A stretch of DNA of 64,000 nucleotides from Litchfieldia sinesaloumensis (GTDB taxonomy: Bacteria > Bacillota > Bacilli > Bacillales > Bacillaceae_L). Location of the stretch: the NCBI RefSeq assembly GCF_900156865.1, contig NZ_LT732529.1, forward strand, positions 4,202,613 through 4,266,612. Direction: 5' to 3'. How positions within the stretch are numbered: the stretch's first letter is position 1; each line of letters starts with the position of its first letter. This document shows positions 31,008 through 57,561 of this stretch, piece after piece. Under the pieces are notes generated by a model. It saw only the letters and a list, made by a program, of their open reading frames with translations. It searched no databases and had not been told where the DNA came from. The position numbers and the translations under genes were made by a program.

Positions 31008-31059
31008 TACCAAAAGTAATTTTAAAATACCAGAACTAAATATAAAAACGAGATAGAAT
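31008..31059 (+). promoter_or_regulatory. Regulon operator and promoter A (GH78 operon)
   Basis: Half-sites TACCA start at 31008 and 31028, 20 bp apart, each preceded by AAAA. The -10-like TAGAAT begins at 31054, 26 bp after the proximal half-site. There is no good -35, which fits an activator-dependent promoter. Same geometry as sites B-E. Confidence 0.75.
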
Positions 31060-31099
31060 GAGAACAACAAGAAAGACAATAAGGAAAGGACGGGACGAT

Positions 31100-33838
31100 A
31101 TGAAGGTAGCTGATTTACGAGTTGAATACGCAACCAATCCAGTAGGGATTGATTTGGAACAGCCACGATTTTCTTGGAAAATTGAGTCAAATGAGCAAAA
31201 TGTAAAGCAAACAGGTTACCAAATTGTAATAACTAACAAGGACGAATTGGTTTGGGATACTGGAAAAATAGAAAGTGATTCATCTGTTTTAATTGAGTAC
31301 GAAGGGGTAAATCTAAAACCTTGTTCTATATATAAGGTCCAAGTAAAAGTTTGGGATAACAAAGACAATCAGTCTACTATTGATGGAAGCTTTGAAACAG
31401 GGCTATTAAATGGGACGAATTTTCAAGGAGAATGGATCACACATCAACTTCCCGATGAAGAAACAGCCAGCCCAATTTTTGTAAGGGATTTTATTGTAAA
31501 GAAAGAGATTGAGAGAGTTCGAATCTACGCTACCTCATTAGGTGTATATGAGATAAAAATGAATGGAGAAAAAGTAGGAGATACTTTTTTTGCCCCAGGC
31601 TGGACCAATTATAAAAAGCGCCTCCAGTATCAAACATATCTTGTTGATGGATTGTACCAAGGTCAAAATAAAATTGAAATTTCAGTGGGGAATGGTTGGT
31701 ATAAAGGGATTTTTGGTTTTACATGCACACCAAATCATTATGGGGATAGGGTTGCAGCGCTTGCGGAGATTCATATTACCTATACTGACGGGACAAAGGA
31801 GATCATTGCAACAGATGAAAACTGGAAGGTAACAACAGGATCTATTCGTTACAGTGAAATCTATATGGGGGAAACGATTGATTCTACATTCGAGGAGAAG
31901 AATCTTTCAGATGTTGTGGTAACTTCCTTTGATAAAAATCGGTTAGTTGCACAGGAAAGTGAACCTGTTCGAATTACTCAAAAGCTGTCAGCAAAGGAAT
32001 TGATTGTTACTCCAAAAGGTGAAAAGGTAATCGACTTTGGCCAAAATCTCACTGGATTTGTGGAGATGAAAGTTCATGGTAAAGCGGGACAAAAAATAAT
32101 AATACGTCATGCAGAGGTCTTGGATAAAGACGGAAACTTTTATCCAGAGACATTAAGACAAGCAATCTCTGTTGATACTTTTATTTGTAATGGACAAGAA
32201 CAAACCTTCCTACCAAGTTTTACTTTCCATGGTTTTCGATATATCAGTATTGAAGGCCTTGAGGAGATTAATCTTGAAAATTTTACAGCGTGTGTACTAC
32301 ACACGCATATGGAGGAGACCGGAACTTTTACAACCTCTAATCCGTTAATAAACCAACTCCAAAGCAATATCCAGTGGAGCCAGCGAGGCAATTTCTTAGA
32401 CATTCCAACTGACTGTCCACAAAGAGATGAAAGGCTTGGCTGGACAGGGGATGCACAGGTGTTTGCAGGAACGGCAGCTTATAACCATCATGTAGCATTG
32501 TTCTTTAAGAAATGGTTAAGAGATTTAGCCTCTGAACAATCGAAAGAGTATGGAGTACCACACGTTGTTCCGAATATTTTAGGAGACCAGGATGGTGCTG
32601 CTGCATGGAGTGATGCCGCTGTCATTATTCCATGGGTGGTGTATCAGACATATGGGGATGTGAGAGTTTTAGAGGAGCAATATGAAAGTATGACAGGCTG
32701 GATTGAATATATATCATCACGTTGTGGTAGCAATGGTTTATGGCAAACGGGGTTTCAATATGGGGATTGGCTCGCATTAGACAAAGAAGAGGGTGCTGAT
32801 CGAACAGGAGCTACTGATAAGTACTTGGTTGCTAATGCTTACTATGCATACTCAACAGATATTGTAAGGAAAACAGCGGAAATCCTTAATAAAACGGCAG
32901 ATTTCGAAAAATATAATATGCTTTATGAAAAGGTAAAGAAAGCTTTTAATGAAGAGTATATCACCAAAACTGGAAGACTAGTGAGTGAAACACAGACAGG
33001 CTGTGTATTAGCCTTACACTTTGATTTGGCCGAAGAAAAATATAGAAATCGAATTCTAGATTCTTTAACGACTAATATTGCGAACCATAAAAACCACCTT
33101 ACGACTGGGTTCGTGGGTACACCCTATTTATGCCATACTTTGACAGATAATGATGAACATGACTTAGCAGGAACTCTATTATTAAAAGAAGATTATCCTT
33201 CTTGGTTATATGCTGTTAAGAAAGGAGCTACAACGATTTGGGAACGCTGGAACTCCATTTTACCTAACGGTGACTTCGATGAGTCAGGTATGAATTCGTT
33301 AAACCACTATGCATATGGTTCGATTGGAGAATGGATGTACAGAAAGCTAGCAGGTATCAATCAACTTGAACCAGGATATAAGAAAATTTTAATCAAACCA
33401 CAATTTATAAAAGGAATTACTTCTGTAGAGGCCAGCTATCAATCCGTTTATGGAGAGATTAAAAGTGCATGGTCATGTAAAGATGGAAAAATTGAGATAC
33501 AGGTTGTGGTTCCAGCTAATACAACTGCTGTTATTTACTTGCCTGAAAAAGAAGAGCAAATTGAAGTTGGGTCTGGTTCCTACTTCTTTGAATATGAATC
33601 AGAAACAAATTTAGACCATGAACGATTTTCAATGGACTCTACTTTAAAGGAAATTCTAGATGAACCAATAGCTTTAAAAATGTTTAATCAATATGCACCG
33701 GAAATAATGAACCATCCGATGATTGAGTTTGCTTATCAATTATCAATAAGTGAAATAGTAGCTAATGCACCAAAAGAAACAGAAGGCTTATTTAAAATGG
33801 TAATTGATCAGCTTAATCAAACCAAAATAACAGTTTAG
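31100..33838 (+). CDS. Alpha-L-rhamnosidase, GH78 family
   Basis: A 912-residue cytoplasmic enzyme that removes terminal alpha-L-rhamnose from glycosides. The N-terminus (DLRVEYATNPVGIDLEQPRF) and beta-sandwich parts are typical of GH78. The catalytic (alpha/alpha)6 barrel holds DCPQRDERLGWTGDAQVFAG near residue 435, with the acidic residues of the active site, and TTIWERWNS further on. The last 71 residues (from RFSMDSTLKEILDEP) form a helical tail related to that of the GH3 and GH2 enzymes here. No signal peptide. ATG at 31100 has AAAGGACGGG upstream. First gene of an operon. Confidence 0.88.
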   Translation: MKVADLRVEYATNPVGIDLEQPRFSWKIESNEQNVKQTGYQIVITNKDELVWDTGKIESDSSVLIEYEGVNLKPCSIYKVQVKVWDNKDNQSTIDGSFETGLLNGTNFQGEWITHQLPDEETASPIFVRDFIVKKEIERVRIYATSLGVYEIKMNGEKVGDTFFAPGWTNYKKRLQYQTYLVDGLYQGQNKIEISVGNGWYKGIFGFTCTPNHYGDRVAALAEIHITYTDGTKEIIATDENWKVTTGSIRYSEIYMGETIDSTFEEKNLSDVVVTSFDKNRLVAQESEPVRITQKLSAKELIVTPKGEKVIDFGQNLTGFVEMKVHGKAGQKIIIRHAEVLDKDGNFYPETLRQAISVDTFICNGQEQTFLPSFTFHGFRYISIEGLEEINLENFTACVLHTHMEETGTFTTSNPLINQLQSNIQWSQRGNFLDIPTDCPQRDERLGWTGDAQVFAGTAAYNHHVALFFKKWLRDLASEQSKEYGVPHVVPNILGDQDGAAAWSDAAVIIPWVVYQTYGDVRVLEEQYESMTGWIEYISSRCGSNGLWQTGFQYGDWLALDKEEGADRTGATDKYLVANAYYAYSTDIVRKTAEILNKTADFEKYNMLYEKVKKAFNEEYITKTGRLVSETQTGCVLALHFDLAEEKYRNRILDSLTTNIANHKNHLTTGFVGTPYLCHTLTDNDEHDLAGTLLLKEDYPSWLYAVKKGATTIWERWNSILPNGDFDESGMNSLNHYAYGSIGEWMYRKLAGINQLEPGYKKILIKPQFIKGITSVEASYQSVYGEIKSAWSCKDGKIEIQVVVPANTTAVIYLPEKEEQIEVGSGSYFFEYESETNLDHERFSMDSTLKEILDEPIALKMFNQYAPEIMNHPMIEFAYQLSISEIVANAPKETEGLFKMVIDQLNQTKITV

Positions 33839-33847
33839 AGGTATATA

Positions 33848-33876
33848 GGGACTAAAGGGATAAAGCTTTAGTTCCC
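33848..33876 (+). terminator. Intra-operon hairpin
   Basis: GGGACTAAAG (33848-33857) pairs with CTTTAGTTCCC (33866-33876) with one bulged base. There is no T-run, so it may act as an mRNA-processing or stability element between GH78 and the symporter. Confidence 0.5.
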
Positions 33877-33916
33877 TCCTAAATCTATTTTCTAGCATAA
33901 ATAAGGGGGAAGAAGA

Positions 33917-35353
33917 ATGAAGGTCGAGAATGAAATTGTAAACCAACACTTAAATGGTCCGCAGAAGAAAAAGAGAAAAGAGCTTGGCCTCGATGCTCAG
34001 GGGATTCAAAAAACAATGAGAATTCATCACTATCTTGGGGATGGAGCGGGTCAAATCGCATTAAATTCGATTACAGGTCTCGTCGGAATGCTAACATATT
34101 TTTATACTGACAAGGTAGGTTTAGCGGCAGGGACAGTTGGTACCATTTTGCTTTTATCGAGAATATTGGATGCGTTTACAGACCTCTATATGGGGAGATT
34201 GGTGGATGGGACAAAATCTAAATATGGTAAAGCACGTCCATGGTTATTATGGATGACTATACCTGCATTAGTAGCCATCGTTTTACTTTTTACCATTCCT
34301 GCAAACGCTTCACCTATGATTAAAAATATATATGCCTTCCTAACCGTAACGTTTGCAACAGGTATTGTATATACAGCGATTGTTATTCCTTATGGCAGTT
34401 TGATGGCAATGCGTACACGCAGCTCAGAAGAACGTGGAAAGATGGGTATTAGCCGTGCTGTTTTTGGATACGCGGTTGGTATGGTAATAGCCATATTAAT
34501 AATACCAATTACGAACATGTTAGGCGGCGATCAGAAAGCATGGATAATTGTAGGAGTAGTTCTAGCTGTTTTATCAAGTATTTCTTTATACTTAACATTC
34601 GTCGTATCTAAGGAAGATAATGATGTAGCTAAAAATGAGGTAGATGAAAAAGTTTCACTATTGGAAAGTCTGAAATTATTATTCAAAAACAAATACTGGG
34701 TCATTATGCTATTCGTTATGTTTATGTTAAATATAATGCTAACACTAAATGGTTCAACAGGGGTTTATTACACAAAGTATATATTAGGCGATGAAAATTT
34801 GGTTGCAATTATGGGTGGTGTAGGATTAATTCCAATTATTATTGGGTTTGCAGTAGTAGGGCCAATGATAAAAAAGTTTGGCCTTGCAAGGACAGCTCAA
34901 ATTGGATTATTTCTAGGAATAATTGCAACAGGAATCCGCCTTTTTATGCCTTATAGTTTTATGGCGGCATTAGTATTCGGAGGAATTGCAACATTTGCCA
35001 CGATCCCAATGATGGCAATCGGAGGAGTACTCGTAAACAATACAGTAGAATACGGTGAATGGCAGTCCGGAAAACGTCTCGTTGGGATGGTAAATAGTGC
35101 AAGTAGTTTTGGTATAAAAATAGGAAGTGGTCTTGGCGCGGCTATGATTGGGTGGACACTAGCCCTCGGAAACTATGATGGAACATTAGCTACGCAACCC
35201 GATTCAGCAATCACTAGTATTTTAGTTCTTACAGTATATTTGCCATTTGCTTTGTTCGTCGCATGCTATCTAATCCTTCGTAAATATGATTTAGACCAAA
35301 AGTATCCACAGATTGTCAAAGAATTAGAGAATCGAAAAAACATAAATAATTGA
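33917..35353 (+). CDS. GPH-family (MelB-like) glycoside:cation symporter
   Basis: A 478-residue, 12-span transporter of the glycoside-pentoside-hexuronide:cation family. Diagnostic parts are DAFTDLYMGRLVDGTKSKYGKARPWLLW near residues 95-122 (the Asp and Lys/Arg of the sugar/cation site) and VNNTVEYGEWQSGKRLVGMVNS. It should import oligosaccharides or glycosides with Na+ or H+. Second gene of the GH78 operon, so it most likely supplies that enzyme and the next one. Confidence 0.85.
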   Translation: MKVENEIVNQHLNGPQKKKRKELGLDAQGIQKTMRIHHYLGDGAGQIALNSITGLVGMLTYFYTDKVGLAAGTVGTILLLSRILDAFTDLYMGRLVDGTKSKYGKARPWLLWMTIPALVAIVLLFTIPANASPMIKNIYAFLTVTFATGIVYTAIVIPYGSLMAMRTRSSEERGKMGISRAVFGYAVGMVIAILIIPITNMLGGDQKAWIIVGVVLAVLSSISLYLTFVVSKEDNDVAKNEVDEKVSLLESLKLLFKNKYWVIMLFVMFMLNIMLTLNGSTGVYYTKYILGDENLVAIMGGVGLIPIIIGFAVVGPMIKKFGLARTAQIGLFLGIIATGIRLFMPYSFMAALVFGGIATFATIPMMAIGGVLVNNTVEYGEWQSGKRLVGMVNSASSFGIKIGSGLGAAMIGWTLALGNYDGTLATQPDSAITSILVLTVYLPFALFVACYLILRKYDLDQKYPQIVKELENRKNINN

Positions 35354-35388
35354 AACGTGATTTTTTAACTAGGTGAGGGAATAAAAAC

Positions 35389-37656
35389 ATGAGAAATATT
35401 AAAGATATTAAAGATTTAATTAATCAAATGACATTGGAAGAAAAAGCAGGTATTTGTTCGGGTCACGATTTTTGGAATACAAAATCAATTGAAAGACTTG
35501 GGATACCGTCTATCATGATGACAGATGGTCCCCATGGTCTTCGAAAACAAGCTGGTGAAACAGATCATCTTGGTATAAATAAAAGTGTGCCGTCAACTTG
35601 CTTTCCGTCAGCTGCAGGTCTTGCTTGCTCATGGGATAAAGATTTGGTGAATAAGATGGGAGTTGCGATTGGGGAAGAAGCACAAGCAAATGGCGTTTCG
35701 ATTGTACTAGGACCAGGTGCAAACATCAAACGATCTCCACTGTGCGGTCGAAACTTCGAGTATTTCTCAGAAGATCCATATTTATCAAGCCATTTGGCAG
35801 CCAGCTATATAAAAGGGGTTCAGAGCCAAGGAGTTGGTACATCCTTAAAGCACTTTGCTGTGAATAACCAAGAATATAAACGAATGTCGGTTGATGTTAT
35901 CGTTGATGAACGTACACTACGGGAAATCTATTTAGCTAGTTTTGAAGAGGCTGTAAGGGAAGCACAACCTTGGACAGTAATGGCAGCCTACAATAAGGTT
36001 AACGGAGATTTTTGTTCTGAAAATAAAAATCTATTGACGGAAATTCTTAAAGATGAATGGGGATTTGAGGGCTTCGTTGTGACTGATTGGGGAGCGGCGA
36101 ACGAACTCGATGATGGAATTGCTGCTGGGCTTGAACTTGAAATGCCTTCGAGTGGAGGTCAAGGTGAAAAGAAGATTGTCGAGGCAGTAAAAGCTGGTAA
36201 GCTATCAATTGAAACACTTGACCAAGCAGTAGAGAGAATCTTAAATGTGGTCTTTCAAGCTGTCAATAATAAGAAAAAAGACGCTCGTTATAGTAAAAAT
36301 GAACATCACAGGATAGCTAGAGAAGTAGCACAAGAAAGTATGGTATTACTGAAAAATGAGAAACAGATATTGCCGATAAAAGAGGTAGAATCAATTGCTG
36401 TAATTGGGGCATTTGCAAAAAATCCAAGATTCCAAGGTGGGGGTAGTTCTCATATTAATCCGACCATGGTTGATACTATTTTCGAAGAGATGGAAAAGGT
36501 TGCAGGACCTACTACTTCACTCCAATATGCTAAAGGGTATTCACTTGAAAGTGATGATGTAAATGAAGATTTAATTTTAGAGGCTGTTGAGGTTGCTAAG
36601 AAAGCAGAGGTTGCAGTTATCTTTGCAGGATTGCCGGAACGATATGAATCGGAGGGATTTGACCGCAAGCATTTAGGTATTCCAGAAAATCATATAGTAC
36701 TAATTGAAGAGATTGCTAAAGTGCAAAGTAATGTAATAGTTGTATTAAGCAACGGGGCACCTGTTGAGATGCCGTGGCTAAGTAAGGTCAAGGCTGTGCT
36801 AGAGACTTATCTTGGTGGTCAAGCGTTAGGTGGTGCAGTTTCTGATTTGCTATTTGGTCTTGCAAACCCGAGTGGTAAGTTAGCGGAGACGTTTCCTAAA
36901 AAACTTGCTCATAATCCTTCCTACTTAAACTTCCCAGGAGATGGGGAAACTGTTGAATATCGTGAAGGAGTATTTGTCGGTTATAGACATTATGATACAA
37001 GAGATGTCGATCCATTATTCCCATTTGGCTACGGGTTAAGCTATACCAGCTTTGAATATAGTGATATTCGTGTTAATCGTAAAGAAATACAGGATACTGA
37101 TACTGTTACTGTGTCGGTAAAAGTAAAAAATACGGGTAGCGTGGCAGGAAAAGAGATTGTACAGCTATATGTAAGGGATGTAGATAGTACGGTTCCTCGG
37201 CCAGAAAAGGAACTAAAAGGATTCGATAAGGTTTACTTGCAACCAGGTGAAGAAAAAACAGTGACCTTCGAGTTAGGAAAAAGAGCATTTGCTTACTATA
37301 ATGCAAAGCTAAAAGATTGGCATGTGGAGTCTGGTGCATTTGATATTCTAGTTGGTTCATCTTCTCGTGATATTTTACAAAGAGAGACAGTATATGTACA
37401 ATCTACTGTGAAAATCGAAAAAGTAATTACGAGATATTCTACCTTTGGTGAATTAATGGAGCATCCTGTCGGTGCGGAAATTTTGAAAGCCATGCAATTA
37501 CAAGTAGGTCAAAGTGATATAGATCATGGCCTAGGAGCAGGTATGCAGGAAATGATTTTGGGAACAACCTTGCATAACGCAAGTATGATGAGCAATGGGG
37601 CCTTTACGGAGGAAATGCTTCAGGGAATATTGCAGACTGTTAACAGCTCAAAATAA
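35389..37656 (+). CDS. Beta-glucosidase, GH3 family
   Basis: A 755-residue GH3 enzyme. It has [15 protein letters not shown], the nucleophile Asp in GFVVTDWGA near residue 234, the alpha/beta sandwich domain and the fibronectin-III-like domain ending in [17 protein letters not shown] final helical tail (682-755, [12 protein letters not shown] onward) is related to those of GH78 and GH2 here. No signal peptide, so it acts on imported glycosides, releasing glucose or a related sugar. Start ATG has GAGGGA upstream. Third gene of the operon; strong terminator follows. Confidence 0.88.
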
Positions 37657-37718: not shown

Positions 37719-38150
37719 AAAACGTAACCTTTAAACACAAGTAGCATTGATTTAATATGCAGATGCCATAATAATTAAATCTATGATTAATAGGTAATAA
37801 AAACCTATAGTGGTGGTTCTTCACTAAATAATTATGGATTTAATAGTGTTTAGCATAAAAACACCATTTGGGGGTGTTTTTTTATTTTGAACATCTATTG
37901 AATTAGAAACACAAAAACGTCCCTACAAATTATGTTCGGCCTGAGTCCCAACAAAAGTAGTAACCATCTCCCGTCACTATCTGAGGACCTGCACGCGATT
38001 CCATTCCCATATGTCCAGAGGGACACCACATTTTTAGGCTAATTTATTAAAAAATAAACAGATGGACTAGATAGATATTCTAATTTTCTGTATTATTATA
38101 AGATTAAGAGATAATCAGAAAAGGCCCTAATATATGGGAGGTACTTCACT
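37719..38150. other. Gap with a second terminator and the fbp promoter
   Basis: A second hairpin, AAAACACC/GGTGTTTT with a T-run, lies at about 37857-37885. The rest is A/T-rich and presumably holds the fbp promoter. No ORF. Confidence 0.5.
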
Positions 38151-40085: not shown

Positions 40086-40202
40086 ATTAGATGTCTTAAC
40101 TAAAATTCTATAAGATAATAGCAGAAAATGATGGAAAAATGAGGAGCTATATTCGTAATTTAGTATATTAAGGTTAATAAATATGATTATGGAGGGCTTA
40201 TA

Positions 40203-42688: not shown

Positions 42689-42740
42689 TACAAAAAAAAG
42701 TACATAAACACCATAAAGATTTAATGCAGAGTGCTATGAT
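42689..42740 (+). promoter_or_regulatory. Regulon operator and promoter E (GH43 operon)
   Basis: Half-sites TACAA (42689) and CACCA (42709) start 20 bp apart; the -10-like TATGAT starts at 42735, 26 bp after the proximal half-site. Same geometry as A-D, though the cre-like motif is absent here. Confidence 0.7.
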
Positions 42741-46652: not shown

Positions 46653-48469
46653 GTAAAGATAAAGTGAAAACTTCCTCCAAACAACCAAAAGTAATGGAGA
46701 AGCCTAAAGATGTAAAAGCAACAATGCTACGTTTAGCTAGTTTTTTAAAACCAGAACGTAAAATTTTGATCCTCGTATTTATATTTAGTGTTTTTTCAAC
46801 GCTATTTACTGTCTACAGTCCTAAAGTTTTAGGAGATGCAACAACTTCGATATTTGAAAGTGTAACATCTAATAGTCCTATTAACTTTGGATTTCTTGGA
46901 AAGTTAGCAATCTTTTTAATCGGACTTTATGTGCTCACTTCATTATTTTCATTTCTACAAATGTATTTAATGGCTGGAGTGTCTCAACGATCTGTTGCGA
47001 CCCTTCGAAAAGAGGTTAATGAAAAATTAACAAGATTACCAATTAAATATTTTGATAAACATTCGTATGGTGATCTGTTAAGTAGAGCAGTAAATGATAT
47101 TGATAATATAAATAATTCTTTTCAGCAGGCATTAACCCAAATCATATCGTCTGTTATTACTGTTGTAGGTATTATTGTGATGATGCTCGTTATTAGTCCA
47201 ATCTTAACAGTTATAATTGCCATTACCGTCCCTTTAAGTTTCTTAGTTGTTCGAATCACTTTTTCTCGATCACAGAAATTTTTCAAACAACAACAAGATA
47301 GACTTGGAGCTGTAAATGGGCATGTGGAAGAAATGTTCTCAGGCCACCATGTCGTCAAGGCATTTGGTTATGAAGAAAAATCAATTCAACGTTTTCGTGA
47401 TATGAACGAGAACTTATACAAGGTTAGTCAAAAAGCACAATTTATCTCAGGTATCATGAACCCAATGATGAGCTTTATCGGTAACTTAGGTTTTGTACTT
47501 GTAAGTATTATTGGGGGTATATTTGTTCTAAACGGAAGTTTGTTGATTGGAAATGTGCAAGCATTTCTTCAATACTCCAAGCAAATCACACAACCGATGA
47601 TGCAGGTAGCTGGAATTGCTACGATGATTCAGAACGCCCTTGCTTCTGCAGAACGCGTTTTTGAAATATTGGATGAAGAAGAACTTGTAAGAGAGGAACA
47701 TGCAAAGGTTGACCTAGATAAGTTAAACGCACGAGTGACATTTGAACATGTGAGTTTTGGTTATGAAGAAAACTCCATTTTAATGAAAGATATCAATCTG
47801 GACATAAAGGAAGGTCAAACCGTAGCTATTGTCGGACCAACTGGTGCGGGAAAATCAACCTTAATAAATTTACTTATGCGTTTCTATGGCCTAAATAGTG
47901 GCCGGATTCTAATAGATGGAGTAGATCTTAAGGTATTATCACGTGAGCAAGCTAGAAGTTTGTTTGCCATGGTACTTCAAGATACGTGGTTGTTCAGTGG
48001 AACAATTGCTGAAAATATCGCTTATGGTAAAAAAGGGGCAACTGATGAAGAAATTAAGGCAGCCGCTTATTCTGCCCACGCTGATGAATTTATTCGAAAA
48101 CTTCCGGAAGGCTACGATACGATGCTAAACCAAGACGCATCGAATATATCTCATGGGCAGAAGCAGCTTTTAACAATCGCAAGAGCTATAATATCCAATC
48201 CGAAAATTTTAATCCTGGATGAGGCAACAAGTAGTGTTGATACACGAACAGAATTGAAAATTCAAAAAGCCATGAAAACACTCATGCAAAATCGAACTAG
48301 TTTTATTATTGCACACCGCCTTTCAACTATAAAAGATGCAGATGTCATTTTAGTCATGAACCATGGAGATATTATAGAACAAGGTACTCATCAAGAGTTA
48401 CTTGTACAAGGAGGCTTCTATGCTGACCTGTATAATAGTCAATTTGAGATTGTTAGCCAAACATCTTAA
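46649..48469 (+). CDS. ABC exporter subunit, catalytic-site type
   Basis: A 606-residue partner of the preceding half-transporter. Walker A is GPTGAGKST, Walker B LILDEATSSVD with the catalytic Glu, and the switch AHRLST has its His, but the signature is ISHGQKQL instead of LSGGQ. In the heterodimer each site combines one subunit's Walker motifs with the other's signature, so one site is canonical and one degenerate, which is self-consistent. N-terminal cytoplasmic extension of about 25 residues. Terminator follows. Confidence 0.86.
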   Translation: MSKDKVKTSSKQPKVMEKPKDVKATMLRLASFLKPERKILILVFIFSVFSTLFTVYSPKVLGDATTSIFESVTSNSPINFGFLGKLAIFLIGLYVLTSLFSFLQMYLMAGVSQRSVATLRKEVNEKLTRLPIKYFDKHSYGDLLSRAVNDIDNINNSFQQALTQIISSVITVVGIIVMMLVISPILTVIIAITVPLSFLVVRITFSRSQKFFKQQQDRLGAVNGHVEEMFSGHHVVKAFGYEEKSIQRFRDMNENLYKVSQKAQFISGIMNPMMSFIGNLGFVLVSIIGGIFVLNGSLLIGNVQAFLQYSKQITQPMMQVAGIATMIQNALASAERVFEILDEEELVREEHAKVDLDKLNARVTFEHVSFGYEENSILMKDINLDIKEGQTVAIVGPTGAGKSTLINLLMRFYGLNSGRILIDGVDLKVLSREQARSLFAMVLQDTWLFSGTIAENIAYGKKGATDEEIKAAAYSAHADEFIRKLPEGYDTMLNQDASNISHGQKQLLTIARAIISNPKILILDEATSSVDTRTELKIQKAMKTLMQNRTSFIIAHRLSTIKDADVILVMNHGDIIEQGTHQELLVQGGFYADLYNSQFEIVSQTS

Positions 48470-48594: not shown

Positions 48595-48646
48595 TACAAA
48601 AATACATACTAAAATACCATAATGTTAAATGTTGTAATGTTACTAT
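48595..48646 (+). promoter_or_regulatory. Regulon operator and promoter B (GH1 operon)
   Basis: Half-sites TACAA (48595) and TACCA (48615) start 20 bp apart; the -10-like TACTAT starts at 48641, 26 bp after the proximal half-site. Confidence 0.75.
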
Positions 48647-48651
48647 TATAT

Positions 48652-48665
48652 TGAAAGCGGATAAC
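48652..48665 (+). promoter_or_regulatory. cre-like site at promoter B start point
   Basis: TGAAAGCGGATAAC resembles the cre consensus at its left half. Its AAGCG begins 14 bp after the start of the -10 hexamer, over the likely transcription start, a position where CcpA represses. Confidence 0.5.
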
Positions 48666-48761: not shown

Positions 48762-48891
48762 GACTACTAATTTGGAATCGACGTAAATCAATCCATTTCT
48801 TTGTAATGCCACCAAAGACTTTAATAACATCATGTATTTCTAAATCAAGCACTAGTAAATAAATTTAAATTAAATGAGGGGGAAGAATCAA

Positions 48892-50187
48892 ATGAAACAG
48901 TTTGCCAATGATTTTATGATGGGAGCTGCTACTGCTGCACACCAAGTAGAAGGAAATAATATATATAGTGATTTCTGGACAATGGAGCAAGTTCCATACT
49001 CAATGTACAAAGAACCATCGTTAGAAGCAGTTGATCACTACAACAGATTTAAAGAAGATATTCAGTTATTAGTAGATGCAGGATTAAACACGTATAGGTT
49101 CTCAATAGAATGGGCTAGGATAGAGCCTACTAAAGGTAATTTTGAAAAAAGAGAAATCGAACATTATAGAGAAGTTTTGGAATTCTGTCAACAAAGGAAT
49201 GTAACACCAATAGTTACATTACATCACTTTTCCTCACCAAAGTGGTTAATTACTGAGGGTGGATGGGAAAGTGAAGCAACAATTGATTACTTCAAAAACT
49301 ATACCCGATACGTAGTTACGGAATTGGGTGATTTAATTCCATATATTTGCACAATTAATGAAGCGAATATGGGTAAGCAAATAGCAAAAATTATGAAAAG
49401 AATGACTGGAGCTAATGAGAAAAATGAAGCAGGGAAAAAGGGAGATATTCAAGTTGGACTTACTATCGATGTTAAGGAGAAAATGGAGAACTATTATCGA
49501 GCTCTAGGAGAGGCTTTTGGCATGGACCCTAGAAACATACAGACGTTTCATAGTCCTCGAACAGATAATGGAGAACGTATCATCATGGAATGTCATGAAA
49601 AAGCAAGAAATGTAATCAAAGAAGTACAACCAAAGATTAAGGTTGGAATCACTTTTTCCCTGTATGATCACCAAGCATTACCTGGAGGAGAAAAATTTGT
49701 AGAAAAAGAATATTACGAGGATTTTCTAAACTACCTCCCTTATCTTCAAGAGGATGACTTTTTAGGTGTTCAGAATTACTCTCGGAAAATCCACGGACCT
49801 GATGGTTATGTGAAATCGGATGAAAATACTAGGTTAACGAAGATGGGGTATGAATTTTATCCTGAAGCTTTAGGAAATGTAATACGATTTGTATCAAAAC
49901 ATTGGGATAAGCCAATCATTGTGACAGAAAACGGTCTATCTACCGATCATGATGAGGAAAGAGTAGAGTATATCGAACGAGCATTAACAGGTGTTCATCA
50001 ATGTATAGAAGAAGGTATTAATGTACTTGGATATATGTACTGGTCATTATTAGATAATTTTGAATGGCAGTTGGGCTATGAACAAACCTTTGGACTGATT
50101 GCAGTTGAACGTACTACACAAACTAGATATCCAAAAGAAAGTTTATCTTTTTTAGGAAATATAAAAAAGGCTGGATTAAATGAGTAA
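48892..50187 (+). CDS. GH1-family beta-glycosidase
   Basis: A 431-residue GH1 enzyme, slightly shorter than usual (450-480). The acid/base Glu is in CTINEANMG, where the normal NEP has become NEA; the nucleophile is in IVTENGLST near residue 345. GMAATAAHQ-type N-terminus (MMGAATAAHQVEG) and YWSLLDNFEW are intact. It should cleave beta-linked glycosides in the cytoplasm. ATG at 48892 has GAGGGGGA upstream; the earlier ATG at 48874 overlaps that RBS. First gene of the GH1-SDR-SDR-GH106 operon. Confidence 0.85.
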   Translation: MKQFANDFMMGAATAAHQVEGNNIYSDFWTMEQVPYSMYKEPSLEAVDHYNRFKEDIQLLVDAGLNTYRFSIEWARIEPTKGNFEKREIEHYREVLEFCQQRNVTPIVTLHHFSSPKWLITEGGWESEATIDYFKNYTRYVVTELGDLIPYICTINEANMGKQIAKIMKRMTGANEKNEAGKKGDIQVGLTIDVKEKMENYYRALGEAFGMDPRNIQTFHSPRTDNGERIIMECHEKARNVIKEVQPKIKVGITFSLYDHQALPGGEKFVEKEYYEDFLNYLPYLQEDDFLGVQNYSRKIHGPDGYVKSDENTRLTKMGYEFYPEALGNVIRFVSKHWDKPIIVTENGLSTDHDEERVEYIERALTGVHQCIEEGINVLGYMYWSLLDNFEWQLGYEQTFGLIAVERTTQTRYPKESLSFLGNIKKAGLNE

Positions 50188-50250: not shown

Positions 50251-51060
50251 ATAAAAGTTCTAGACAAAGTAATAGTTGTTACAGGAGCTGGGGGTGGAAT
50301 CGGACGTGAGTTAGTCCTTAACCTCCTTTCCAAGGGAGCTAGCGTAGCTGCAGTAGATATTAACAGGGATGCACTTGAGGAAACTGTCAAGCAAGCAGGA
50401 GAAAAAGTCGACAAGCTATCCATACACGTCGTGAATTTAACAGATAGAGAAGCTGTTGAGGTATTACCGGAACAAGTCATTTCTTATCATGGTTCAGTAG
50501 ATGGCATCATTAATAATGCTGGAATCATTCATGATTTTGTAAATATTCAAGACCTTGATTACGATAAAATCAAGTTAGTAATGGATATTAATTTTTACGG
50601 AACGCTGTATATGACAAAGTCGTTCCTTCCTTATTTATTGAAAAGACCCTTAGGGCATATTACAAACGTTTCTAGTATGGGGGGATTCCTGCCCGTCCCC
50701 GGTCAATCCATCTATGGAGCATCAAAGGCAGCTGTGAAACTTATGACTGAAGGACTGTACGCTGAGCTTCAGGGTACAAATGTTAGAGTAACGGTAGTAT
50801 TCCCGGGTGGAGTAGGAACGGATATAATGAAAAACTCTGGTGTTGCAGGTGCTGAAAAAGCTAATGCAAGCGAACAAAATATGTCACAATTATTAACTCC
50901 AACAGAAGCAGCGGAAATCATTATCAATGGTATGGAAACGGATCAGTACCGAGTTCTTGCTGGTAAAGACTCGAAAATGATGGATAAGTTATATCGGTTG
51001 AGTCCAAAACGAGCAGTTGGGATTATCTCTAAACAAATGAAAAAGCTAATCAACAAGTGA
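50251..51060 (+). CDS. Short-chain dehydrogenase with apparent ATA start
   Basis: A 269-residue SDR if started at ATA (50251). This start is placed 8 nt after GGAGG (50238-50242) and restores the Rossmann motif VTGAGGGIG at residues 11-19; a TAA lies just before it in frame and no ATG, GTG or TTG occurs until GTG 50431, which would remove the nucleotide-binding half. Later motifs are intact: NNAGI and Tyr-x3-Lys in IYGASKAA. A G-to-A change of an ATG, a rare ATA start, or a base-call error are the options. Likely oxidises a sugar or aglycone hydroxyl. Confidence 0.7.
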   Translation: MKVLDKVIVVTGAGGGIGRELVLNLLSKGASVAAVDINRDALEETVKQAGEKVDKLSIHVVNLTDREAVEVLPEQVISYHGSVDGIINNAGIIHDFVNIQDLDYDKIKLVMDINFYGTLYMTKSFLPYLLKRPLGHITNVSSMGGFLPVPGQSIYGASKAAVKLMTEGLYAELQGTNVRVTVVFPGGVGTDIMKNSGVAGAEKANASEQNMSQLLTPTEAAEIIINGMETDQYRVLAGKDSKMMDKLYRLSPKRAVGIISKQMKKLINK

Positions 51061-51138
51061 TAATCTTTTGAAAAAAACTTATTTAAATTTTATTCCAAAT
51101 AATACAAACCTTATTTCGAGAAAAATAGGAGGTTATCT

Positions 51139-51948
51139 ATGACTGATTTTCTAAGCGTGAAAGGAAAAGTTGTTATAATTACGGGTGCTGCAGATGGTTT
51201 AGGGAAAGCAATTGCTGAATGTTACAGTGAAAATGGAATGAAGGTTATTATATCAGATGTAAATGTTGAAAAAGGTATGCAAACTGTAGTTGAACTCCAA
51301 AATCAGGGAGGTTACGTAGAATTTTTTGCTGCAGATGTAAGTAAAGAGGAGCAAGTTAGGGAACTAATTGATTTTGCAATAATAACATATGGTCGACTAG
51401 ATGGAATAGTTAATAATGCGGGTATCTCGGCTCAAAATAGACCAATTCATGAATTTTCATTAGAAGAATATGAACACTTAATGAGTATAAATTTAAAAGG
51501 TGCCTTCTTAGGGATGAAATATGGTATTGAAACTATATTAAAATCCAAGTCACCTTCGGGTTTTGTAGTAAATATTGCATCGATGGCAGGTATTGAAGGA
51601 AACAGTGCAATGGGAACTTATGTTGCATCTAAACATGGCGTTGTAGGTCTTACAAAAACAGCAGCACTAGATTACGCTAAATATAATATAACAGTTAATG
51701 CTATTTGCCCTGGGACGTTCCGTACTTCTATTTGGGGGGGAGCGTCAGAAGAAGTAATCCAGCAATACGCAAGTATTTTCTCGCCAAATGGTAGATTGGG
51801 AGACCCTAAGGAAGTGGGGTATCTAGCTTTATTTCTTGCATCAGATTTAGCTAGATATATAAGCGGTGCTGTCATTCCAATTGATGCAGGATCAGGTGTA
51901 GGTAAAGTAACCCCTGTAAAATGGGAACATCCAGAAATTCTAGAATAA
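51139..51948 (+). CDS. Short-chain dehydrogenase/reductase
   Basis: A 269-residue classical SDR with TGAADGLGKAI near residues 15-25, NNAGIS near 94, Ser in VNIASMAG and Tyr-x3-Lys in TYVASKHGVVG. NAD(H)-linked oxidation of a hydroxyl to a ketone or the reverse. RBS AGGAGG is 8 bp upstream of the ATG. Third gene of the GH1 operon; its pairing with the preceding SDR suggests two steps on the same released sugar or aglycone. Confidence 0.85.
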   Translation: MTDFLSVKGKVVIITGAADGLGKAIAECYSENGMKVIISDVNVEKGMQTVVELQNQGGYVEFFAADVSKEEQVRELIDFAIITYGRLDGIVNNAGISAQNRPIHEFSLEEYEHLMSINLKGAFLGMKYGIETILKSKSPSGFVVNIASMAGIEGNSAMGTYVASKHGVVGLTKTAALDYAKYNITVNAICPGTFRTSIWGGASEEVIQQYASIFSPNGRLGDPKEVGYLALFLASDLARYISGAVIPIDAGSGVGKVTPVKWEHPEILE

Positions 51949-52021
51949 TAGATAAGAGAGATTATACTTTTTTACTTTTTCTGGTGCTAGGTTATCGGCA
52001 AAATAAAAACGAGGTGAAACA

Positions 52022-54658
52022 ATGACAACTAGATTAAATGATGTCTTACAAGGTAACGAGGATAATTATATATTACCTTTTTTTTGGCAACATGGAGAAG
52101 AGGAAGAAGTGCTTCGAGAGGAAATGGCTCGCATACATGAGTCGAATATAAAGGCAGTGTGTGTAGAGGCACGGCCACATCCTGATTTTTTGGGTCCTAA
52201 ATGGTGGAAAGACATGGATATTATTATGGAGGAAGCAAGAAAGCGTGACATGCGTGTATGGATACTTGATGATGATCATTTTCCCACTGGTCACGCAGCA
52301 GGTCAAATAAAGAATGCTCCTAAAGAGCTTCGTCGACTTTTTTTATCGGTCGATCATATTGATGCATTCGGACCACGACCAAATTCATCATTCATTGTCG
52401 AGCCTCCTCCGTACGTTCCAGGATATTACGACACTGGTGGAGGAACAATTATAGCTGTAATTGCTATTAAAAGGGATTCTGTAACAGGAGAGCTAACAGA
52501 AATAGCGGAGGATGTAACATCAAAAGTTGAGAACGGGAAGTTATACTGGGATGTTCCGGAAGGGTATTGGCGTATATTTACGTTAGTTGAAAATGAAAGA
52601 GGTGGGGATTTAAAGAAGAATGATTATTTAAATCCGATTGTTAAGGAATCGGTTAAAGTTCTTCTTGATACTGTACACGAGGCTTTTTATGAACGTTATC
52701 GTGAGGACTTCGGGAAAACTATCGCAGGTTTTTTTTCTGATGAGCCAGGATTCTATAATGACAGCGAAGGAGCTTATTACGATTCAAAACTCGGTAAACC
52801 AAAAGTTTCGCTTCCGTGGAGCCCAGAACTGTATCAAATATTTGAAAAGGACATGGGAATAGAATATAAAAAGTATTTACCACTTCTCTGGCATGAAGGC
52901 GGAAAGAGTATGTCGGAAATTCGCTATTATTATATGGACATAATTACTAAGTTGTATGCACGAAATTTTACAGATCAAATTGGTGATTGGTGTCGAGAGC
53001 GTGGTGTCGAGTACATTGGACATGTCCTAGAAGACAATAATGTGCATGCTCGACTCGGTAGTGGCGCAGGTCATTTTTTCAGAGCGCTAGGTGGACAGGA
53101 TATGTCGGGACTTGATGTTGTACTCTGGCAGCTCAATCCAGGATTTGATGGAATTCCTTCACGGATGTTTGCAGGTGAAGCTGATAACGAGTTCTTCAAT
53201 TACGGACTTGCTAAAATGGCAACGTCACTTGCGCATATTGATCCAAAAAAGAAAGGCCGTACTATGGCAGAAATCTTCGGGGCCTATGGCTGGGTTGAAG
53301 GGTTAAAATTAATGAAATGGATGACGGATCATATGCTAGTTCGCGGCGTGAATTATTTTGTACCGCATGCTTTTTCGCCAAAAGAATATCCGGATTACGA
53401 TTGTCCGCCACATATGTACGCGAGAGGTAAAAATCCACAATATCGTTATTATAAATATCTAAATCAATATACGAATCGGATGAGCCATCTCTTATCTGGA
53501 GGTACGCATGTTGCCTCTGTGGCTGTCTTATACCATGCAGAAGCAGAATGGGCAGCGGGCGATTATATGTATTTCCAAAAACCAGTAAAAGAACTGATGA
53601 GAAGTCAAATAGACTGCGATATTCTTCCATGTGATTTCATTATAGAGGATGTAGAAGTCCAAAATGGGAAACTAGTTAGTCATAAGGAGACATTTGACTG
53701 TCTAATTATCCCTTATTCTGAAGCATTGCCAGTTAAAGCGATAAACCGATTAGCTGACTTAGCGAAAAAAGGTTTACCAATATTTTTTATAGATGGACTT
53801 CCTAAACGGTCATGTGAAGGTGAGTCTATCGATATTGCACTTGACATTTTGGTTTCAACTGAAAGAGTGGAAACTATATCATTAGCTGACCTTACAGAGA
53901 CAATGAGAAGTGCTGGATACTTTGATATTCAAGTGAAAGAATATCAGCCATATTTACGCTATTATCATGTTAAGCAACAGGAAATGGATGTTTTCATGTT
54001 CTTCAATGAGCATCCATTGGATGAGATAGAGACGGAGGTTAAAATTCCGTTTACAGGGGAAATCTTCAACTATGATGCATATGAAAACAGGGTAAGGAAA
54101 GCTCGCGTGGTTCAAAAGGATGAGTATTCACTTGTTTCTATTAAGCTTGCTCCATTTGAAACTATAGTAGTTGTTGCTGGTCTAGAACATAGAGTATTTG
54201 AGCTTAGTCCTGTTGTTGAAAGGTTACAGCAGTCAGCAAATATAGAAGGACCTTGGTCACTTTCAACAGCAACCTCTGAGCAATATCCTGAATTTTCACC
54301 TTGGGGTGAACTTGAAGTATTAACTGATTTGAGTCGTATTGAGGGTCTACAAACGTTTTCCGGAACGATTAGGTATGAAAAAGAATTAACATGGATTCCA
54401 GATGGAAGGCGTGTGTTCATTGATCTAGGAGATGCATACGAAACAGTTGAGGTTTTTGTAAATGGCAAGTCTCTAGGAGTTCGGATTCAGGCTCCATACC
54501 AGTTTGAATTAAGTAACAATCTCCAGACGGGAGTAAATTCACTGCAGATTGAAGTTACTAATACCCTTGTGAAGGAAAACAATGACATGCTTTCACGCAT
54601 TGGACACCAGGAGCCAAGTGGTTTGCTAGGGCCGGTACGATTATTAATAGAAGCATAA
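52022..54658 (+). CDS. GH106-like alpha-L-rhamnosidase
   Basis: An 878-residue enzyme. The N-terminal catalytic region with FFWQHGEEEEVLREEMARI, VWILDDDHFPTGHAAGQI and FSDEPGFYND (acidic residues of the barrel) resembles GH106 alpha-L-rhamnosidases and related Glyco_hydro_106 proteins. The last 130 residues form a GH2-type sugar-binding beta-sandwich (FIDLGDAYETVEVFVNGKSLG). The rhamnosidase call is by resemblance and by the GH78 gene in the same regulon. No signal peptide. RBS GAGGTG upstream. Last gene of the operon. Confidence 0.7.
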   Translation: MTTRLNDVLQGNEDNYILPFFWQHGEEEEVLREEMARIHESNIKAVCVEARPHPDFLGPKWWKDMDIIMEEARKRDMRVWILDDDHFPTGHAAGQIKNAPKELRRLFLSVDHIDAFGPRPNSSFIVEPPPYVPGYYDTGGGTIIAVIAIKRDSVTGELTEIAEDVTSKVENGKLYWDVPEGYWRIFTLVENERGGDLKKNDYLNPIVKESVKVLLDTVHEAFYERYREDFGKTIAGFFSDEPGFYNDSEGAYYDSKLGKPKVSLPWSPELYQIFEKDMGIEYKKYLPLLWHEGGKSMSEIRYYYMDIITKLYARNFTDQIGDWCRERGVEYIGHVLEDNNVHARLGSGAGHFFRALGGQDMSGLDVVLWQLNPGFDGIPSRMFAGEADNEFFNYGLAKMATSLAHIDPKKKGRTMAEIFGAYGWVEGLKLMKWMTDHMLVRGVNYFVPHAFSPKEYPDYDCPPHMYARGKNPQYRYYKYLNQYTNRMSHLLSGGTHVASVAVLYHAEAEWAAGDYMYFQKPVKELMRSQIDCDILPCDFIIEDVEVQNGKLVSHKETFDCLIIPYSEALPVKAINRLADLAKKGLPIFFIDGLPKRSCEGESIDIALDILVSTERVETISLADLTETMRSAGYFDIQVKEYQPYLRYYHVKQQEMDVFMFFNEHPLDEIETEVKIPFTGEIFNYDAYENRVRKARVVQKDEYSLVSIKLAPFETIVVVAGLEHRVFELSPVVERLQQSANIEGPWSLSTATSEQYPEFSPWGELEVLTDLSRIEGLQTFSGTIRYEKELTWIPDGRRVFIDLGDAYETVEVFVNGKSLGVRIQAPYQFELSNNLQTGVNSLQIEVTNTLVKENNDMLSRIGHQEPSGLLGPVRLLIEA

Positions 54659-54669
54659 TGTAGGTTTGT

Positions 54670-54700
54670 AAAACAGGAATTACAATGTAATTCCTGTTTT
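54670..54700 (+). terminator. Terminator of the GH1 operon
   Basis: AAAACAGGAATTAC and GTAATTCCTGTTTT form a perfect stem around AAT. Confidence 0.88.
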
Positions 54701-54740
54701 ATGTTACTCTTTTTCTATTTCTAAATAACTTAATAAACAA

Positions 54741-54792
54741 CACCAAAAAAAGCACTAAAATACCATAAAGAAAAAGTGGTCTTTGTTAGTAT
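54741..54792 (+). promoter_or_regulatory. Regulon operator and promoter C (GH2 gene)
   Basis: Half-sites CACCA (54741) and TACCA (54761) start 20 bp apart; the -10-like TAGTAT starts at 54787, 26 bp after the proximal half-site. Confidence 0.75.
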
Positions 54793-54797
54793 GAGTG

Positions 54798-54811
54798 AGT
54801 AAGCGTATATC
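54798..54811 (+). promoter_or_regulatory. cre-like site at promoter C start point
   Basis: AGTAAGCGTATATC shows the AAGCG core beginning 14 bp after the start of the -10, the same offset as at promoters B and D. Confidence 0.45.
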
Positions 54812-54868
54812 GCTGCGTATTAACTAATTTACCTCGATAAGTTCTCATAAAAAATAGGAGGATATAGC

Positions 54869-57190
54869 ATGAGAAAAGTCTTAAATCTAAATCATTCTTG
54901 GAAATTTTCGAAGCAGCATGAAGAAATTATAAGTGAAGTTTCCTTTAATAATCAAAACTGGGAGGAAGTATCTTTACCACATACATGGAACGCAATTGAT
55001 GGGGCGAATGGCAATGAATTTTACCGTGGTGCATGTTGGTATCATAAAAATCTTATGTTGCCAATAGAAGAGCAAAGAAACCATGTATTTATTGAGTTTG
55101 AAGGTGCAAATAGTGTAACCGATGTGTTCCTAAATGGTAAGCATCTTGGTCAACACCGAGGAGGGTATTCCACATTCCGCTTTGATTTAACGGAGAATTT
55201 TATTTTTGGTAAACCAAATGTGTTAGCTGTAAGAGTAGACAATTCTGACTTTAAAGACGTATATCCATTGAGAGCAGATTTTACCTTCTATGGTGGTATT
55301 TATCGTGATGTTAATTTAGTCGTTGTCAACCCAGTTCATATAGATTTATTGGATCATGGATCACAAGGTATTTATGTGATACAAGAAGAAGTGACAAATG
55401 AGTTGGCTAAACTTCGTTTGCAAACACGAGTTACAAATAATTTGAAGATAGACACCAAGGTTAGACTGTGGGTTGATTTGTTTGATCAAGTGGGTAATCA
55501 AGTCAGTAATCGAGCGGCGGAGGTAAACCTCAAAAGTGGAGAAACAAAACCTGTTGATTTAGCTTTATTTATTAATAATCCAAAGTTATGGAATGGCATG
55601 GAAAATCCACATATGTACGAAGCGCGTGTTTCCTTACAGAACTACAATGATACACTAGATGAAGTTATTGTCCCATTTGGTGTTCGGTATTTCCATGTTG
55701 ACCCAAAACGCGGGTTATACCTAAATGGTAAGAATGTACGATTAAATGGTGTAGCTAGACATCAAGACCGAAAAGATATGGGATGGGCAATCACACATAA
55801 AGAGCATAAAGAAGATATGGAACTTATAAAAGAAATTGGAGCAACTTCTATTCGTCTAGCACACTACCAACATGATCAATATTTCTATGATTTATGTGAC
55901 CATGAAGGGATTATTGTTTGGGCGGAAATTCCTTTCATTACTGAAATGTCTGAAACGGATTTAACCGGTCAGAATGCTAAGTTGCAAATGATAGAATTAA
56001 TTCGTCAGAATTTTAATCATCCGTCTATTCTATTTTGGGGTATTCAAAATGAAATTCAAATTGGAAGCAAATATGAAAAAGAGGTTAGACAAGTTGTTCG
56101 TGAACTAAACCAATTGACAAAACAAGAAGATCCAACTCGCTTAACAACAATGGCCAATGTTTTCATGGTAGAGGATACAGATGAGTATAACTTTATGACA
56201 GACGTAATTGGATATAACAAGTATTACGGCTGGTACAATGGGAAAGCTGAGGACTTTGCTCCATGGTTAGATAGTTTTCATGAAATAAATTCTAATACGA
56301 GCCTTTGTATTTCTGAATACGGTGCCGAGGGAATTATAGAATACCATAGTGATGAACCAAAAGTGAAAGATTACACAGAGGAATACCACGCCCTTTATCA
56401 TGAAAAAGTCTGGAAAATATTTGAGGAACGCCCTTTTTTATGGGCTACCTATGTATGGAATATGTTTGACTTTGGTGCGAATATTCGTGATGAAGGTGGT
56501 GTAAAGGGGCGAAACAATAAAGGGCTTGTCACATACGATAGAAAAGTAAAAAAAGATGCTTTCTTCATGTACAAGGCGCATTGGTCTAACGATCTATTTG
56601 TTCACCTAACAGGTAAACGTTATGTAGAACGTGCAAATGAAAAATCAGATTTTAAGGTATATACAAACTGTGAACAAGTTACGTTGTTTGTTAATGGTGA
56701 AGAAATTGAAACACAGTCAGCAATTGATAGAATTGTTGTCTTTAAAGATATTATTTTAGCAGACGGGTCAAACTACATACAAGTCAAAGCCCAGACTGGT
56801 GATTTGGTATTTGATGATCACGCATGGTTTGAGAAGGTAGCAAATGCAAATCTTAGCTATAATGCACCTGTAGATGATACGGGTAGGGTTGCAAACTGGT
56901 TTGACATACCTGAGTTTGATGATGATGAACTAATCGGGGACATTGAAGTCCCAGAAGGCGTGTATTCTACAGGAGATACGCTACAGGAATTGTTTGAAAA
57001 TGATGAGACAAAAGATATTGTTTTAAGTATATTAGGGGATCTTACAAAAATTCCAATGTATGGCATGATGAAGGGATTTAAACTTGATGTACTTGCATCA
57101 ATGGCCAGTGCAGAAGAAGGAGAAAACTCACTATTTGACGAACGCAGGCTTAAACGATTAAACCGAGAGTTAGTTAAGATTAAAAAGTAG
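54869..57190 (+). CDS. GH2-family beta-galactosidase/glucuronidase-type enzyme
   Basis: A 773-residue GH2 enzyme: sugar-binding domain with SWKFSKQHEE and VFIEFEGANSVTDVFLNGKHLG, immunoglobulin-like domain, and barrel with the acid/base Glu in GIQNEIQ near residue 397 and the nucleophile in ISEYGAEG near 490. DKRHxDRKDMGWA-type motif (RHQDRKDMGWAI) is intact. The last 80 residues (VYSTGDTLQELFEND onward) are a helical tail related to those of GH78 and GH3 here. No signal peptide. Its own promoter (site C) drives it; no clear terminator after. Confidence 0.86.
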   Translation: MRKVLNLNHSWKFSKQHEEIISEVSFNNQNWEEVSLPHTWNAIDGANGNEFYRGACWYHKNLMLPIEEQRNHVFIEFEGANSVTDVFLNGKHLGQHRGGYSTFRFDLTENFIFGKPNVLAVRVDNSDFKDVYPLRADFTFYGGIYRDVNLVVVNPVHIDLLDHGSQGIYVIQEEVTNELAKLRLQTRVTNNLKIDTKVRLWVDLFDQVGNQVSNRAAEVNLKSGETKPVDLALFINNPKLWNGMENPHMYEARVSLQNYNDTLDEVIVPFGVRYFHVDPKRGLYLNGKNVRLNGVARHQDRKDMGWAITHKEHKEDMELIKEIGATSIRLAHYQHDQYFYDLCDHEGIIVWAEIPFITEMSETDLTGQNAKLQMIELIRQNFNHPSILFWGIQNEIQIGSKYEKEVRQVVRELNQLTKQEDPTRLTTMANVFMVEDTDEYNFMTDVIGYNKYYGWYNGKAEDFAPWLDSFHEINSNTSLCISEYGAEGIIEYHSDEPKVKDYTEEYHALYHEKVWKIFEERPFLWATYVWNMFDFGANIRDEGGVKGRNNKGLVTYDRKVKKDAFFMYKAHWSNDLFVHLTGKRYVERANEKSDFKVYTNCEQVTLFVNGEEIETQSAIDRIVVFKDIILADGSNYIQVKAQTGDLVFDDHAWFEKVANANLSYNAPVDDTGRVANWFDIPEFDDDELIGDIEVPEGVYSTGDTLQELFENDETKDIVLSILGDLTKIPMYGMMKGFKLDVLASMASAEEGENSLFDERRLKRLNRELVKIKK

Positions 57191-57509
57191 AAATCTTAGA
57201 TTGTTCTATTGAAAACGAAAATTAATTTTAGTAGTTTTAAAACAAGAAATTTACTACTGTTTCGGATATAGGAGGAATGAAATTAAGGTAACTTTAACAA
57301 ACTTGATTGGTTAATAGAGAGACACAACATAGTGATGTTCGAAGGTATGCTACACAGATTAAGAAAGACTAGTTTAACTTACTTAAGAAATCAAAGTATA
57401 GGTCAGTATTGATGCTGTCACTTCAACTTATTTTGAGGATCCTTGTTGTGTCTTCTTTATAATATTTTCTCTAAATTGAGTGCTGAAAAACAAATGTTTA
57501 GTACAAATG
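57191..57509. other. Gap with a long-range inverted repeat
   Basis: GACACAACA (57321-57329) pairs perfectly with TGTTGTGTC (57444-57452) across 114 nt, followed by T-rich DNA. An AGGAGG-like site followed by a four-codon frame lies near 57272-57290. This may be the 3' structure of the GH2 transcript. Confidence 0.4.
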
Positions 57510-57561
57510 TACCAAAAGTAATACTAAATTGCCATACTGATACCTATAGTTCTGCTAAGAT
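57510..57561 (+). promoter_or_regulatory. Regulon operator and promoter D (second symporter)
   Basis: Half-sites TACCA (57510) and TGCCA (57530) start 20 bp apart; the -10-like TAAGAT starts at 57556, 26 bp after the proximal half-site. Confidence 0.72.

Follow-up and report, generated by a model that had tools for sequence, protein, structure and literature searches.

The window analysed here, a 64,000-nucleotide stretch of the Litchfieldia sinesaloumensis genome (contig NZ_LT732529.1, positions 4,202,613 to 4,266,612 of the forward strand), carries a cluster of glycoside hydrolase (GH) and transporter genes, together with two genes coding for AraC-type regulators and five promoter sites, A to E, that share one geometry. 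Read along the plus strand, the first half of the cluster comprises AraC1 (reverse), site A, GH78, a first GPH symporter (GPH1), GH3, a hairpin, a fructose-bisphosphatase, a histidine phosphatase, and AraC2 (reverse). The second half comprises site E, GH43, two ABC exporters, site B, GH1, two short-chain dehydrogenases (SDRs), GH106, a further hairpin, site C, GH2, site D, and a second GPH symporter (GPH2). The regulators and the sites, in window coordinates, are as follows.

29627..30865, minus strand: AraC1 (P0001), AraC-type regulator, 412 amino acids
41390..42634, minus strand: AraC2 (P0002), AraC-type regulator, 414 amino acids
31008..31059, plus strand: site A, half-sites TACCA at 31008 and TACCA at 31028, -10 TAGAAT at 31054-31059, no TGn; AraC1-type; before GH78-GPH-GH3
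42689..42740, plus strand: site E, half-sites TACAA at 42689 and CACCA at 42709, TGC, -10 TATGAT at 42735-42740; between AraC2 and GH43
48595..48646, plus strand: site B, half-sites TACAA at 48595 and TACCA at 48615, TGT, -10 TACTAT at 48641-48646; before GH1-SDR-SDR-GH106
54741..54792, plus strand: site C, half-sites CACCA at 54741 and TACCA at 54761, TGT, -10 TAGTAT at 54787-54792; before GH2
57510..57561, plus strand: site D, half-sites TACCA at 57510 and TGCCA at 57530, TGC, -10 TAAGAT at 57556-57561; before GPH2

The original prediction, made from the nucleotide sequence alone, had described five promoters with identical operator geometry, and its particulars held up: the five sites lie where it placed them, the half-sites start exactly 20 bp apart, the hexamers read as it gave them and begin exactly 26 bp after the proximal half-site, ACTAAA stands ahead of the proximal half-site in three of the five (B, C, and D), and the downstream genes carry the names that it had assigned (GH78, GH43, GH1, GH2, and the second GPH symporter). 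A search of the window with the pattern YRCMA-N15-YRCMA-N21-TANNNT retrieved five matches on the plus strand and none on the minus strand, where 60 order-2 Markov simulations averaged 0.05 per strand and never exceeded 1. When half-site spacings of 8-39 and -10 distances of 8-44 were scanned on both strands, the combination (20,26,+) gave five matches and every other combination at most two. Half-site pairs considered without the -10 are only mildly in excess (nine on the plus strand and four on the minus strand, with a simulated mean of 3.8 and a standard deviation of 2.2 per strand); hence, the weight of the evidence lies in the joint geometry of half-sites and -10.

AraC1 and AraC2 share 48% identity across 408 aligned positions, and both possess the two-helix-turn-helix (two-HTH) DNA-binding domain of the AraC/XylS family (HTH_18, 2.8e-19 and 3.3e-21). 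The recognition helix of the second HTH is identical in the two proteins (over DQSYFTKVFKK), and that of the first HTH differs at 3 of 14 residues, a likeness that makes cross-talk likely. The predicted structure of AraC2 (mean predicted local distance difference test score [pLDDT], 80.8; predicted template-modeling score [pTM], 0.47, a low value that makes the modeled domain arrangement unreliable) matched the DNA-binding domains of AraT and AraC, with TM-scores by target of 0.83 and 0.81, and gave weak GAF-like matches (CodY, with an E value of 0.011 at best). Residues 80-156 of AraC1 match the PocR sensory domain at 25.6 bits, just over the Pfam cutoff of 23.9. The top NCBIfam match of both regulators is TIGR04094, at 165.3 and 149.7 bits, under the curated cutoff of 200.

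Comparison across homologues revealed that the 20/26 geometry follows the regulator and is common in its subfamily, rather than being peculiar to this cluster. We assembled 70 distinct homologues by keeping AraC hits that scored 150 bits or more and whose open frame spanned 330 amino acids or more, dropping short or broken members, merging those with the same last 250 residues, and excluding loci from L133 on. The pattern YRCHA-N15-YRCHA-N21-TANNNT occurs divergently within 400 bp of 49 of them (47 of 68 without the window's two), as against 6 for the next-best spacing pair and 5 for the best same-strand one, and the site typically lies 40-150 bp upstream of the regulator gene. After clustering at 50% identity, 14 of 24 clusters retain the geometry (next best, 3). 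A second set was drawn from 398 genomes of the class as the best-scoring matches (26 loci, with 2 already in the first set left uncounted); here, the geometry is found in 13 of 24 new members, as against 8 for the next-best combination, (11,26). This set is unclustered and includes the near-identical members L187/L190, L195/L196, and L204/L205, and the site of L183 is that of L044. Several of its members have an extra TACAA 11 bp ahead of the proximal half, which would fit each monomer touching two boxes one helical turn apart. The geometry is absent from all 30 control loci with other AraC proteins, 102.5 kb in total, and among 29 phylum-level homologues it occurs divergently in one, with a site identical to that of L044, plus one same-strand match and one downstream match. 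We accordingly rejected the idea that the geometry marks the AraC family as a whole or the phylum. The first genes behind the subfamily sites, identified from their first 60 residues by eye and by tblastn with the window proteins, mostly code for GH3, SDRs, GH1, GH43-like proteins, and GPH transporters, with a few others. One cluster of 23 members (L052-L070, L072-L074, L087, and L118) has the geometry in 22; its AraC genes are mostly divergent to an SDR gene preceded by TACTATTA-type sites.

Site models were built from relatives' sites at AraC2-relative loci, drawn from named genomes and further relatives. These sites were picked because they matched, so that their own scores are no evidence, and the window's five sites were excluded from building both the matrix and the sequence-only AraC2-type model (R1). 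The motif search that the original prediction had called for, run with the matrix of 14 relatives' sites, returned exactly the five sites in the window at a score of at least 15 (E, 52.7; B, 49.4; C, 37.2; D, 24.3; A, 17.9). Random sequence (1 Mb, searched on both strands) scored 12.3 at best. The logo of 19 sites (the window's 5 plus the 14) reads YACMAAAAAnAnnAC(T/C)nAAATACCATAA, followed by a variable stretch and then TGnTAnnAT. At the TG positions before the hexamer, T is present in 15 of the 19 sites and G in 18; site A has AG, and the G is absent only from the L045 site. In the 4.56-Mb genome, R1, built from 21 relatives' sites and with 150 of 7015 candidates scored, ranked E first (3.6e-11), B second (8.2e-9), and C third (1.3e-6). 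Its fourth hit (L136) has an ungapped matrix score of -2.4 and was rejected as an extra site. A consensus drawn from all five sites has no other genome match at one mismatch or fewer and four at two mismatches (backward control, 2). A genome-wide regulon outside the cluster is thus unsupported by either search, and as far as these genome searches reach, the regulon appears to be limited to this cluster.

In relatives, such sites are found ahead of orthologues of GH1 (several loci), GPH2 (L041, L044, L046, and weakly L047), the ABC exporter gene ABCa (L102 and L107), GH106 (L041), GH2 (L048), and GH43 (L102 only); L042 is a repeat of L041. The GH43 relative of L102 (14516-15391) is fragmented; the half-sites of its site are spaced 19 bp apart and the -10 is degraded, as though the site were decaying together with the gene, a pattern seen in this one case only. 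Two relatives (L107, 8805; L102, 14415) have a separate site for the ABC exporter pair, which has none at threshold in the window, suggesting that sites come and go.

The original prediction had proposed AraC-type class II activation, a proposal well supported by the conservation of the site beside AraC homologues and its absence from the 30 control loci. All five sites have a direct repeat of 20 bp, about two helical turns. The -35 is poor, as had been claimed: with a 17-bp spacer, its place is taken by CAGAAC in A, CATAAA in E, CATAAT in B, CATAAA in C, and CATACT in D, at most two of six positions matching TTGACA at every site (by eye). An extended -10, with TGn directly before the hexamer, is present in E, B, C, and D (by eye), a feature that the original prediction had left unmentioned. 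The position of the proximal half-site over the -35 place, together with the extended -10 of these four, is the arrangement expected for class II activation. Counts from a generic sigma-70 promoter scan lay near the shuffle mean and were uninformative. Overall, we put at roughly 0.78 the probability that the five sites are class II operators of a two-HTH AraC subfamily, with A probably served by AraC1 and E, B, C, and D probably served by AraC2. In the most likely scheme, a dimer would sense a plant-glycoside breakdown product and then bind the direct repeat, upon which the proximal half-site would occupy the -35 place and hold RNA polymerase on the -10 of promoters predicted to be weak by themselves. 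AraC2 would probably drive GH43-ABC-ABC from E, GH1-SDR-SDR-GH106 from B, GH2 from C, and GPH2 from D, and AraC1 would probably drive GH78-GPH1-GH3 from A, with cross-talk between the two likely at these operators.

A further layer of control might be provided by cre-like boxes (mismatches are to the 14-base cre consensus):

48652..48665, plus strand: cre-like box at the predicted start of site B, 4 mismatches
54798..54811, plus strand: cre-like box of site C, 4 mismatches
57567..57580, plus strand: cre-like box of site D, 3 mismatches
30971..30984, plus strand: cre-like box upstream of site A, 2 mismatches; ten such on the plus strand of the window

The boxes of B, C, and D coincide with the predicted transcription starts and begin 57 bases after the distal half-site. 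Over 29 sites, namely, the window's five and relatives' sites that are partly related to each other, the best downstream box has two mismatches or fewer at 6 (an excess, such boxes occurring in 0.4% of mononucleotide shuffles) and three or fewer at 11, five of the latter at offset 57. At A and E, the best downstream box has five mismatches, which amounts to none there, and those of B and C are poor matches. CcpA might act at the boxes of B, C, and D to switch these units off on better sugars. Binding, activation, the ligand, the division of labor between the paralogues, and catabolite control by CcpA are all steps that we infer.

Several observations weigh against the proposed operators and their assignment. 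The exact divergent pattern is missing from 21 of the 70 homologues (three of these, L051, L057, and L075, have it downstream), from 11 of the 24 members of the second set, and from 28 of the 29 phylum-level homologues, and the homologues are mutually related rather than independent samples. By eye, several of the misses still show the proximal half-site followed at 26 bp by the -10, and their distal half is weak. The distal half-site is also weakened in most of the AraC1 orthologues examined. Site A has AGA in place of TGn; it is absent from the 20 genome hits that R1 gave among the 150 candidates scored and also from its 4 hits in the window alone. Site D ranks only fifth in the R1 genome search, with an E value of 0.078, behind an unrelated hit. 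Shuffled sequences yield cre-like boxes of four mismatches or fewer in about 28% of cases and of three or fewer in about 5%, and the boxes of B and C have four.

The original prediction went on to hold that the five units respond together. Their shared geometry stands; the co-response of all five is only partly supported, and two overlapping subregulons with one geometry are more likely than a single regulon. Site A is assigned to AraC1 and sites E, B, and C to AraC2 because the AraC2-type model misses A and because AraC1 orthologues keep a related site before GH78. In five loci of the second set, AraC1 orthologues (54.6-56.3% identical) lie beside GH78 (66-68%) and GH3 (63-68%). A genus search retrieved AraC1 matches at E values of 1e-100 or less in 13 of 75 genomes, and at the 14 AraC1-relative loci comprising those 13 and L186, the pattern T(A/G)CCA-N21-TANNNT occurs divergently at 11. 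Twelve of the 14, including all 11 that keep the pattern, code for regulators with 49-57% identity to AraC1 and have GH3 as a neighbor, most of them GH78 as well; many of the 11 are close relatives within one genus, and the genes of L216, L219, L221, and L222 are those of L189, L193, L192, and L194. The misses are L226 (57%), the truncated frame of which means that its promoter may be misplaced, and L227 and L228 (42%). By eye, L225 (49%) has the complete 20/26 pattern. Four genomes with AraC1 beside GH78/GH3 gave a single match at an E value of 1e-60 or less (4 candidates per genome scored), which suggests that the AraC1 module can exist by itself. E, B, and C fit AraC2, and D probably does too, since the GPH2 orthologues of L041, L044, and L046 are preceded by AraC2-type sites. 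The first 13 bases of D are, however, those of A, and D could serve both regulators.

The chief alternative is that all five units answer to one AraC protein, probably AraC2, and that the other paralogue is redundant or acts elsewhere. All five sites lie within one mismatch of the consensus drawn from them, which nothing else in the genome matches as well, and the identical second recognition helices and the bases common to A and D would suit such an arrangement. We nevertheless consider it doubtful, given that the AraC2-type model misses A and that AraC1 occurs elsewhere beside GH78 and GH3 as a module apparently able to stand alone. A repressor, or a non-AraC factor of the same geometry, would also fit the overlap with the -35, but the siting of the pattern beside subfamily genes in 49 of 70 homologues and beside none of the 30 other AraC loci points to the AraC proteins themselves, and promoters without a usable -35 fit activation; such a factor is very improbable. 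That the five sites are recent duplicates, or alike by chance in AT-rich DNA, is hardly credible. In favor of chance are the A-rich motif and the 37% G+C content of the window, but the simulations and the spacing scan led us to reject coincidence, and the sites are conserved in other genera. The upstream flanks are 26-37% identical pairwise, near the 27% (standard deviation, 5) found for random stretches of the window, and duplication of one promoter was rejected as their origin on that ground. Two overlapping subregulons built on a common class II operator remain the favored interpretation.

The genes and hairpins around the sites are as follows.

31100..33838, plus strand: GH78 alpha-L-rhamnosidase; start 31100 preferred over 31058, by eye, from the ribosome-binding site
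33917..35353, plus strand: GPH symporter 1
35389..37656, plus strand: GH3; best NCBIfam match, exo-alpha-(1->6)-L-arabinopyranosidase, 878 of 1300 bits, under the cutoff
37857..37881, plus strand: terminator-like hairpin after GH3; 13 such in the window, 10.8 in shuffles
43020..44816, plus strand: GH43 with an F5/8 type C domain
44928..48469, plus strand: two ABC exporter genes, probably read from site E
48874..50187, plus strand: GH1
50254..51948, plus strand: two SDRs, the first with an apparent ATA start
52022..54658, plus strand: GH106 alpha-L-rhamnosidase
54667..54703, plus strand: 17-pair terminator-like hairpin in the GH106/GH2 gap, longest of 7 such in the window; 7.3 in shuffles
54869..57190, plus strand: GH2
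57772..59280, plus strand: GPH symporter 2, start by eye

The assignment of the ABC exporter pair to E follows from the lack of a site scoring at least 15 with the relatives' matrix before it in the window. The hairpin at 54667..54703, if a terminator, would set C apart as a separate unit; the numbers of terminator-like hairpins are close to the shuffle level, and any single one is weak evidence. The fructose-1,6-bisphosphatase and histidine phosphatase genes between GH3 and AraC2 (38151-40805) have no at-threshold site ahead of them. In the first SDR gene (50254-51060), an in-frame TAA directly precedes the ATA; ATG or TTG is found there in the four relatives inspected.

Through these comparisons, a pattern first noticed by eye becomes an operator model that can be put to the test for an AraC subfamily, and the two paralogues under one ruler offer a clean case of duplicated regulators dividing operators between them. 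It is tempting to go further and propose, tentatively and at well short of even odds, that an AraC subfamily of Bacillales and Paenibacillaceae keeps a near-invariant 20/26 ruler while half-site letters, targets, and perhaps ligands vary, with two paralogues cross-binding in the present cluster and a cre box at a fixed place contributing catabolite control. If this were so, the target units of the subfamily would be readable from DNA alone. The ruler predicts co-controlled plant-glycoside enzymes (GH1, GH2, GH3, GH43, GH78, and GH106), dehydrogenases, and transporters in soil bacteria.

We found no published description of this operator in the literature searched, most subscription journals lying outside it. 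The system resembles E. coli AraC at araBAD and other AraC/XylS class II activators in its two-HTH domain, its direct repeat of about two turns, and its proximal half over the -35. In E. coli AraC and those other activators, the half-site spacing is about 21 bp; the present sites differ in their 20-bp spacing and in the extended -10 of most of them. The N-terminal matches here are PocR (AraC1) and weakly GAF-like ones. Although both regulators match TIGR04094, the YSIRK-targeted surface antigen transcriptional regulator, they do so below the cutoff, and the genes here code for glycosidases and transporters. Closer at hand are the AraC family L-rhamnose regulators of Bacillales, Bacteroides, and Enterococcus, for which a comparative genomics study reports predicted direct-repeat operators, those of the Bacillales regulators having a 21-bp periodicity (PMC3870299). 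As described there, those regulators resemble the present ones in direct repeat, AraC family, and a link to rhamnose metabolism, and the 20 bp seen here departs from that 21-bp periodicity. E. coli RhaS and RhaR share the AraC family and the rhamnose context but, according to the same study, bind inverted repeats (PMC3870299), whereas the repeat here is direct. AraC direct-repeat operators are already known, and the value of the present case is the subfamily-wide ruler.

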